Source: Salsipaludibacter albus | GTDB lineage: Bacteria > Actinomycetota > Nitriliruptoria > Nitriliruptorales > Nitriliruptoraceae | NCBI RefSeq assembly: GCF_019798055.1 | Contig: NZ_JAHOPH010000029.1 | Location: 1-47,675, forward strand | Reading direction: 5' to 3' | Length of the DNA stretch: 47,675 nt | Shown: positions 10,063 through 21,220 of the stretch, piece after piece | Numbering within the stretch: the stretch's first letter is position 1 | Layout of the letters: each line of letters opens with the position of its first letter | Program-made: the position numbers and the translations under genes | Notes under the pieces: generated by a model | Databases searched by the model: none | What the model was told of the DNA's origin: nothing | The model's input: the letters and a program-made list of their open reading frames with translations, nothing else

Positions 10063-10069
10063 CCGTGGT

Positions 10070-10219
10070 GACGTCTTCGGGGCAGGTGGAAGTCCTGGCC
10101 GGCGGTGAGAGCCCGCGAGCCGTGGTCGTCGAGGTGGCGTCGAACGCACCGCGACGGTCCGTGGCAGACCCGGTGGAATCCCGGGGCCGACGGTGAGAGT
10201 CCGGATGGGAGGAGACGTC
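10070..10219 (+). ncRNA. FMN riboswitch (RFN element)
   Basis: Matches the conserved FMN aptamer core: GGGGCAGGTGGAAGTCC, GGCGGTGAGAGCCCGCGAGC, then GACCCGGTGGAATCCCGG, GGCCGACGGTGAGAGTCC and GGATGGGAGGAGA. A closing P1 helix pairs 10070-10078 with 10211-10219 (GACGTCTTC with GGAGGAGACGTC, one wobble). The variable arm (about 10122-10162) is longer than the minimum. It lies upstream of ribD and should repress the operon when FMN is bound. The mode is not obvious; no U-tract terminator is seen downstream. Confidence 0.95.
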
Positions 10220-10247
10220 GCGGTGCGGCCTGTCCGGATCCGGGTGG

Positions 10248-18370: not shown

Positions 18371-18511
18371 GCCCGCTGAGCCCGGACACGCCGCCGTGCG
18401 GACGGCTCGTCGCCGGGCCGGCACGCCCGGCTCGACCACGTCCGCGTGGACCGGGACCCGTGCTCGACATCTCCGCAGCCCGACTCGCGACCTCGCCTGG
18501 AGCAGCACTCG

Positions 18512-19042
18512 ATGAGTGACATGCCGATCGACCCGAACATGGCCGCCGACCTCGGTGGCCAGCCCACCGGCCAGCCCTCCGAGGAGGAGGTGCGCCAGTA
18601 CCTCGCCCAGATGCGTGGTGCCCCGGTCGAGCAGGTCCTCGCGGAGGTCCTGCAGGGACTGCTCAACGCGGCCCAGATCAAGCTGGGTCGACGTGACGGT
18701 CGGCTGTTGCTGGACACCGCCACGGCGTTGGTCGAGCAGTCGCGTCCGGCGCTGTCCAGCGATCTTGCCGGCCAGGTCGACGAGGCCCTGTCCCAGCTGA
18801 AGATGGCCCAGGTCGAGGCCGAGAAGGAGGTCGCCGAGGCCGGACGCGAGGAGCCCAACGACCTCGGTGGCTCCGCCGGTGACGGTGGGGCGGGGGCCGA
18901 CGACGCGACCGAGCCCACGACCCCGGACCAGCAGGCCACCCCGCGGCAGGCGCCCGGCGGCCAGCAGCCCGGGGCACAGCAGCGCGGCCAACAGCCCGGC
19001 GGGAACTCGCCGCTCGACAAGCTGTGGATCCCGGGTCGCTGA
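18512..19042 (+). CDS. DUF1844-like protein upstream of infC
   Basis: A 176-residue cytoplasmic protein. The folded part (about residues 20-110) is helical: [40 protein letters not shown] and a coiled-coil-like segment with [18 protein letters not shown]. The C-terminal third is low-complexity Gly/Gln/Pro ([15 protein letters not shown]) and ends [11 protein letters not shown]. Family knowledge: a DUF1844 protein is found beside infC in several actinobacteria; function unknown. The match is by general pattern, so the family name is tentative. The ATG at 18512 overlaps no other gene. Confidence 0.6.
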
Positions 19043-19107: not shown

Positions 19108-19113
19108 TACACT
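19108..19113 (+). promoter_or_regulatory. Candidate -10 box for the infC operon
   Basis: TACACT followed by an unusually A/C-rich start region (ACAACAACACAGG). Transcription from about 19120 would give a leader of roughly 260 bases before infC. No clear TTGACA-like -35. Confidence 0.45.
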
Positions 19114-19169
19114 CCTCGACACAACAACACAGGTCGAAGTGGACCACGGTCGCGAGGCCGCCCGGTCCC

Positions 19170-19299
19170 ACCCGGCAGGGGCAACCCTCCCCGGGTCGCA
19201 CACCACACCCGACGCCGTGCCAGGCGTCGTCGACTCCACGGGGTCGGCGGCTGGCAGGGCGTGGGAACTGTCTGGGCGACCCCACGGGGTCGCCCGTTT
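19170..19299 (+). promoter_or_regulatory. Structured infC leader with terminator/antiterminator
   Basis: Hairpin 1 (19170-19196) pairs ACCCGG with CCGGGT around AGGG-GCAA-CCCT, a GNRA-type loop. Hairpin 2 (19210-19229) is CGACGCC with GGCGTCG. The terminator stem pairs 19274-19282 with 19287-19295 (GGGCGACCC/GGGTCGCCC) and is followed by GTTTC. GGGGTCG at 19240-19246 is perfectly complementary to CGACCCC at 19277-19283 and could form an exclusive antiterminator. This looks like transcription attenuation control of infC-rpmI-rplT. Confidence 0.6.
19274..19299 (+). terminator. Attenuator terminator in the infC leader
   Basis: Perfect 9-bp stem with a 4-base loop (CACG), then GTTTC. It lies upstream of infC and about 230 bases after the previous gene, so it can act either as that gene's terminator or as a leader attenuator. 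Confidence 0.6.
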
Positions 19300-19381
19300 C
19301 CGTGTCGGCGACGTTCGCCACGAGCGATGCGCCGGTGCCCGCCGCCCAACGACCTCCACCCACGCACCGGGAGACACCACC

Positions 19382-19918
19382 ATCGAGCAACCGCACCGTC
19401 TCAACGCCGACATCAAGGAACCGCGCGTCCGCCTGATCGACGCCGCCGGTGAGCAGGTCGGCATCGTCCAGCTGGCTTCTGCCCTCCGCCAGGCCCGTGA
19501 GCTGGACCTCGACCTGGTCGAGGTCGCACCACAGGCCGACCCGCCCGTCTGCCGCATCATGGACTACGGCAAGCATCGCTACGAGCAGGACCAGAAGGAG
19601 AAGGAAGCCCGCAAGAAGCAGAGCCAGATCACGGTCAAGGAGATCAAGATGCGCCCCAAGATCTCCGACAACGACTACGGGACGAAGTCCGGCCACGTCC
19701 GGCGCTTCCTCGAGGACGGCTCCAAGGTCCGCGCGACGATCATGTTCCGCGGCCGGGAGATGACCCACACCGAGCTGGGACGCAACCTGCTGGACCGGCT
19801 GGCCGAGGACATGGAGCAGCTGGCCACGGTCGAGGCCTACCCCAAGGTCGACGGCCGCAACATGGTCATGGTGCTCGCCCCGATCCGCGACAAGTCGGCC
19901 GAGGGCGCGAAGGCCTGA
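19382..19918 (+). CDS. infC: Translation initiation factor IF-3
   Basis: Binds the 30S subunit and checks the initiator tRNA-start codon pair. The 178-residue protein starts (M)[19 protein letters not shown] and shows [38 protein letters not shown] and the C-terminal domain to LAPIRDK. No ATG or GTG lies at the expected position; an in-frame ATC at 19382 does, 8 bases after GGGAG (19369-19373). IF-3 genes elsewhere use AUU, AUC or AUA for autoregulation, so ATC is the likely start. An extended in-frame N terminus upstream runs through the leader hairpins and is unlikely. Confidence 0.93.
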
Positions 19919-20088: not shown

Positions 20089-20283
20089 ATGCCAAAGCAG
20101 AAGACCCACAGCGGTGCCAAGAAGCGCTTCCGCGTCACCAAGAACGGCAAGGTGATGACGAAGCAGAAGAACCGCGCCCACATCCTCGAGAAGAAGTCCG
20201 CCTCGCGCAAGCGCCGCCTGAAGGGCCAGACCGAGGTCGCCAAGCCCGACGCCAAGCGCGTCAAGCGGCTGCTGAACAAGTAA
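20089..20283 (+). CDS. rpmI: 50S ribosomal protein L35 (bL35)
   Basis: A 64-residue, very basic protein, [20 protein letters not shown] onwards, with the family's [18 protein letters not shown] segment. It binds 23S rRNA in the large subunit. ATG 20089 is preceded by AGGAGG (about 20079). It is followed after 10 bases by rplT, giving the standard infC-rpmI-rplT order. It is the only gene near here ending with TAA. Confidence 0.97.
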
Positions 20284-20293
20284 GGAGCCAGTC

Positions 20294-21220
20294 ATGGCAC
20301 GTGTCAAGGGTGGCGTTCACGCCAAGAAGAAGCACAAGTCGGTCATGGACCGCGCCAAGGGCTTCCGCGGTGCACGCAGCCGCCGGTTCAAGGTGGCCAA
20401 GGAAGCCGTCATGCACGCCGAGCGGTACGCGTACCGCGACCGGCGCGCCCGCAAGGGGGACTTCCGTCGTCTGTGGATCACGCGGATCAACGCCGCGGCC
20501 CGCATGGACGGCCTGAGCTACTCGCGCTTCATGCACGGGCTCAAGCTCGCGGAGGTCGAGGTCGACCGCAAGATCCTCGCTGACATGGCCGTGCGCGAGC
20601 CGGAGGGCTTCACCGCCCTGGTGCTGGTCGCCAAGGACGCCCTGGGCGTCGAGGCGGACGGGACCGAGGGTGCGGCGCGTCGTGCCTCGACCAACGGTTC
20701 GTCGAGCAACGGGTCGTCGGCCGACACCGGTGACGACGCCGGGGTCCAGACCTCGGCCGACGTCGCACAGTCGGTGGGTGACACCGACACCGACGACTCC
20801 CCGACCCCCGACGAGGAGGTCGAGTCGGCGGCGGAGAAGGCCGCGAACGAGACCGACGAGGCCGACGAGGCCGACGAGGTCGTCGACGAGGCAGGCGATG
20901 CCGAGGACGAGCCCGTCGACAGCGACGCCGACGGCGAGTTGGACGACGAGGACGCCACGCCGTACGGCGAGGGCTCGGCCGCCGCGGACGACGACGGCGC
21001 CGGTCCCGAGGGCTGGACCGTCAAGGGCAACGCCGACTCCATGCTCTACCACACCGAGGAGTCGCCCTACTACGACCGCACCAAGGCCGAGGTCTGGTTC
21101 GAGACCGAGCAGGCTGCCGACGCGGCCGGCTTCGAGCGCTGGGACCACGAGGCCGCCGCGGACGACGACGTCGAGGTCGTCGAGCCCGAGGACGCGCCAG
21201 ACGAGTCCGAGGACGAGTAG
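20294..21220 (+). CDS. rplT: 50S ribosomal protein L20 with acidic tail and sunset-like domain
   Basis: Residues 1 to about 118 are a normal bL20: [48 protein letters not shown]. The usual protein stops there; this one has 308 residues. Residues about 120-240 are a low-complexity acidic Asp/Glu/Ala linker ([14 protein letters not shown]). Residues about 240-283 form a compact unit, [20 protein letters not shown] followed by [16 protein letters not shown], like the small domain NCBI calls 'sunset', known from memory in actinobacterial proteins. The final 20 residues are acidic again. GGAGCC precedes the ATG. Whether the tail is kept on the mature ribosome is unknown. Confidence 0.93.

Follow-up and report, generated by a model that had tools for sequence, protein, structure and literature searches.

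What controls the infC-rpmI-rplT operon of Salsipaludibacter albus, and to which product of the operon does its long leader respond? Almost no information exists on control by ribosomal proteins in Actinobacteria (Aseev et al. 2021, PMC8470358). We analyzed the leader within a 47,675-nucleotide stretch of DNA (contig NZ_JAHOPH010000029.1, positions 1 to 47,675), referred to below as the window.

The infC-rpmI-rplT locus

In the window, infC, rpmI and rplT (starts at 19382, 20089 and 20294) are co-directional. The following features frame the leader and the operon:

19108..19113, + strand: -10-like hexamer TACACT (found in the sequence by eye)
19369..19373, + strand: GGGAG, ribosome binding site of infC (sequence)
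19382..19918, + strand: infC, encoding IF3 (Pfam IF3_N and IF3_C; ATC start codon)
20089..20283, + strand: rpmI, encoding L35 (Pfam)
20294..21220, + strand: rplT, encoding L20, the presumed source of the effector (Pfam)

Judging from TACACT at 19108-19113, transcription would start near 19120, as the preliminary description had assumed; similar TAnnnT hexamers were seen by eye 5' of the leaders of relatives. The leader between TACACT and infC is about 260 bases long. The product of the gene 5' of the leader (18446-19042) ends with LWIPGR and has no Pfam match; the same gene also precedes the leader in relatives from the same class that lack an operon infC (L133-L152). Residues 3-109 of the 308-aa rplT product match L20; the long acidic tail behind them has no Pfam match. 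Elsewhere in the window, an FMN riboswitch was identified (10069-10220, + strand, 87.2 bits).

Folding of the whole 283-nt stretch was unremarkable compared to shuffled sequences (z -1.1); for the 188-nt leader up to the terminator z was -3.1, and none of 200 shuffles was as stable. Two hairpins named in the preliminary description were found in the leader, one with a GNRA loop (19170-19196, GCAA) and one of 7 bp with CGACGCC/GGCGTCG arms near 19210-19229. That description had covered only part of the conserved core at 19137-19198, which consists of AAG and two stacked hairpins.

A conserved element upstream of infC

To the comparison of leaders, 61 related genomes were available, mostly drafts, the nearest named relatives being Nitriliruptorales/Nitriliruptoraceae genome bins. 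IF3 was detected in 52 of them, and 28 leaders were usable (25 from the family of the window, one from its order and two from another family of the class). The same element recurs in all 28. It opens with AAG and a single bulged base, continues with a covarying hairpin A and an invariant C, and closes with a hairpin B that begins ACCYG; a terminator lies downstream. In the window it consists of two parts:

19137..19169, + strand: AAG, bulged T19140 and hairpin A (19141-19145/19164-19168, G19139/C19169), presumed to be the 5' half of an L20 site; AAG and three G-C pairs are invariant, the next pairs covary, and the register is that of RF00558
19170..19198, + strand: hairpin B (ACCCGG 19170-19175/CCGGGT 19191-19196, GCAA loop), identified by covariation, folding and model R1

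Pairs were counted both in a model-based alignment and from fixed anchors, since a MAFFT alignment of the full elements misaligned hairpin A. Counted from the anchors, without folding, hairpin A forms 174 of 196 pairs against a shuffled maximum of 156, while the model-based alignment (32 sequences) shows pairing in 95.2% of cells and 42 double-change cells compared to 12.8 expected, and all slid controls collapse; these statistics ignore kinship, and neither the shuffled nor the slid control fully removes relatedness. The fourth pair of hairpin A shows the variation directly, being CG in 12, UA in nine, AU in five and GU in two of the 28 leaders.

A covariance model, R1, was built from the leaders of 12 relatives with the window left out. 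Its top match in the genome of the window is the element itself (19135-19198, 40.7 bits, E 8.5e-7; runner-up E 0.04), and it recovers all 28 leaders. Among 30 loci fetched with matches of 20-30 bits beyond the closest relatives, L050 was the sole infC locus outside the family, and R1 alone is therefore unspecific in this range.

Terminator and candidate antiterminator

Downstream of the element, the 9-bp terminator of the preliminary description is present at 19274-19295 as GGGCGACCC-CACG-GGGTCGCCC, with nine perfect pairs, followed by GTTTCCGTGT. Dinucleotide shuffling of the leader yields a perfect 9-bp hairpin in only 2.4% of cases. The region comprises:

19193..19199, + strand: GGGTCGC, candidate antiterminator partner of 19276-19282 (predicted fold; no better than chance across relatives)
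19210..19262, + strand: species-specific linker hairpins containing GGGGTCG 19240-19246 (fold; GGGGTCG is absent in L002)
19274..19305, + strand: intrinsic terminator with stem 19274-19295 and the weak U-tail GTTTCCGTGT (sequence; relatives conserve the stem through compensatory changes)

GGCG-NNC/GNN-CGCC terminator stems with compensatory changes are shared by 19 close leaders (L005, whose row is hairpin A, was left out of this count). The conservation and covariation that the preliminary description proposed to look for in related leaders were thus found for the stems of the element and the terminator; the 19210-19229 hairpin proved species-specific on comparison with relatives.

Would the terminator be part of a switch? 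L20 might bind the leader and yet control expression at the level of RNA stability or of translation; alternatively, the terminator might be a fixed brake. Such control would accord with the weak U-tail, with an antiterminator pairing no better than chance (see below) and with the infC leaders of some members of the phylum, in which no clear terminator was detected by the finder used. However, a terminator stands behind the element in nearly all leaders, low-GC members have strong U-tracts, and the terminator stems covary. We consider control without a switch unlikely, and a terminator-antiterminator switch is the reading followed here.

As antiterminator, the preliminary description had named GGGGTCG (19240-19246), which is indeed perfectly complementary over 7 nt to 19277-19283. 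However, 26% of shuffles contain one or more perfect 7-mer complements of the terminator arm; the leader has two (19193-19199 and 19240-19246). L002, the leader from the same genus, lacks a counterpart of GGGGTCG, which in the window is buried in a more stable local helix, and forcing its pairing yields -89.8 kcal/mol compared to -102.7 kcal/mol for the best fold, a cost of 13 kcal/mol. An attenuator working through this pairing is very improbable; of the earlier proposal, the attenuator-type leader is well supported and the named antiterminator is not.

Folding of the growing transcript suggested another partner. In the predicted folds of this one sequence, transcripts ending at 19283 or 19290 have hairpin B open and GGGUCGC (19193-19199) paired with GCGACCC (19276-19282), and once the terminator is complete, the element together with the terminator is the best fold. 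The likeliest antiterminator partner in these models would be the 3' arm of hairpin B, 19193-19199. Across relatives, complementarity between element and terminator arm did not exceed that of shuffled arms (median p 0.44 for the 28 close leaders and 0.36 for the wider phylum set); in a partition-function version 15 of the 28 leaders scored above 0.5, with shuffled arms often equally high. L013 has a suggestive complementarity, GGGTCACCG matching CGGTGACCC. AGGTCG often occurs in the hairpin B loop (L003, L005-L007, L010, L019); since this motif, too, can pair with the terminator arm GGCGACC, the partner may differ between genera.

The element is linked to rpmI-rplT rather than to infC

The preliminary description had left open whether the leader senses L20, IF3 or the state of the ribosome. 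Three families of the class of the window (f3, f4 and most of f5) lack the operon-type infC and have instead a divergent IF3 gene adjoining rpmG (L33); rpmI lies at another place in these genomes. The rpmG-adjacent IF3 genes (L234-L253) group in a clade of their own with full support, and genome G049 has both kinds of IF3 gene, which indicates that infC was displaced and did not move; physical relocation of infC was rejected on these grounds.

The element was found directly 5' of rpmI(-rplT), by its layout, in 15 of the 18 genomes without an operon infC, and 10 of these 15 were confirmed by model R2 (E below 0.05). No element was found before the rpmG-adjacent IF3 genes of the f3, f4 and f5 genomes. 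G049 and G050, with an intact infC-rpmI-rplT, have the element upstream of infC, and neither layout nor model R2 detected one directly before their rpmI. The element thus remains at rpmI-rplT in genomes whose operon has lost infC, so the leader is tied to the L35-L20 pair. Of these two proteins L20 is the preferred effector, being the one known to act on such leaders (PMC10931766, PMC6097659). This linkage and the RF00558 matches to homologous leaders in the phylum point to L20, not IF3, as the effector. Displacement of infC with the leader kept at rpmI-rplT is a natural experiment that separates the two.

Sensing of IF3 or of the general translation state would suit a leader standing before infC. 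It would also suit the rare start codon of this gene, AUC in all 28 operon-linked genes of the group (L001-L029). The infC gene of E. coli starts with AUU, and IF3 controls its own translation; by analogy, the AUC codon suggests self-control of IF3 at the start codon, in translation. The element, however, remains before rpmI-rplT where infC has been replaced by another IF3 gene, and is absent from that gene, which renders this alternative extremely improbable and favours L20 among the signals first considered. Among the divergent rpmG-adjacent IF3 genes (L094-L112), all 18 readable starts are ATG, TTG or GTG.

Proposed mechanism

The leader is probably a diverged L20 leader acting as an autogenous transcription attenuator of infC-rpmI-rplT. 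Free L20 would bind the junction of AAG, hairpin A and hairpin B (19137-19198) and stabilize it; with the junction held, the terminator at 19274-19295 would form in vivo and expression of infC-rpmI-rplT would fall. With L20 bound up in 23S rRNA, the element would be released, and the freed part, for which the 3' arm of hairpin B (19193-19199) is the likeliest candidate, would pair with the 5' arm of the terminator so that transcription continues. The assumed direction of control is that of B. subtilis, where L20 binding promotes the terminator (PMC10931766, PMC6097659). Against this reading stand the failure of RF00558 to score the window, the weak U-tail, and, over the relatives, a complementarity between element and terminator arm that does not exceed that of shuffled arms.

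This leader offers a concrete, testable candidate for an L20 switch in Actinobacteria. In M. tuberculosis, the infC 5' UTR is more abundant than the coding part (PMC3207917); by analogy, this high UTR-to-coding ratio fits an L20 attenuator, without proving one, and such a switch would be a possible reason for it.

Distribution and comparison with known L20 leaders

The L20-type leader is a known element (Rfam RF00558, L20_leader). RF00558 gave no match to the window up to E 10, its gathering score being 58.7 bits. In other actinobacteria it matches the same site 5' of infC, with scores that fall as the sequences diverge: 65.6 bits in L063, above the cut-off, then 56.1 (L076), 45.1 (L064), 39.2 (L071) and 38.8 (L077). 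The lowest score was 18.3, in G059, where the covariance model built here matches the same bases.

The layout was also found in further infC leaders across the phylum, among them named records of Corynebacterium, Brevibacterium, Collinsella, Slackia, Acidimicrobiales and Thermoleophilia. A loose layout finder detected it in 57 of 76 regions upstream of infC compared to 17 of 78 downstream controls; it was missing from some of the infC leaders scanned (L065, L080, L088, L119-L124). On balance, we lean toward an ancestral origin of L20 attenuation in Actinomycetota and its presence in nearly the whole phylum, from Coriobacteriia through Corynebacterium to Nitriliruptorales, with divergence concealing it from current models. 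Within the class of the window, several families would then have kept the leader at rpmI-rplT once a second IF3 gene had displaced infC, the new IF3 genes having ordinary start codons and not AUC.

The RF00558 consensus, AAG-a-AGAAGC..GCUUCU-C-gCC..GGc, and the window, AAG-U-GGACC..GGUCC-C-ACC..GGU, are in the same register. The AAG-N-stem-C-stem layout is present, with the invariant AA and consecutive C-G pairs in all 32 sequences. The B. subtilis infC-rpmI-rplT leader of RF00558 and the window share the operon, the invariant AA and CC/GG pairs, and a terminator behind the element, at 19274-19295 here and likewise in relatives; where infC is gone, the element stands directly before rpmI-rplT, still 5' of the L35-L20 genes. 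The window differs in its high-GC sequence, which lies below the reach of the model, and in the variable length of hairpin A. The inner helix is CAGG..CCU, in contrast to the gcgCAUA-type interior of hairpin B in RF00558, and the terminator arms differ. The best reading of these sequence comparisons is that this leader belongs to the known L20-binding type, in a diverged form missed here by public models.

The hallmark of L20 leaders is an AA dimer with two consecutive G-C pairs (Eckert and Weinberg 2020, PMC7247131), and both are invariant in the window and its relatives. They are shared by the L20 leader candidate of deltaproteobacteria, which was described as a further structural scaffold (PMC7247131); it belongs to another phylum and is likened here by its published description. 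In E. coli, L20 is likewise the effector of its own operon, rpmI-rplT (PMC10931766), where it represses translation via a pseudoknot and a hairpin and infC lies outside the control.
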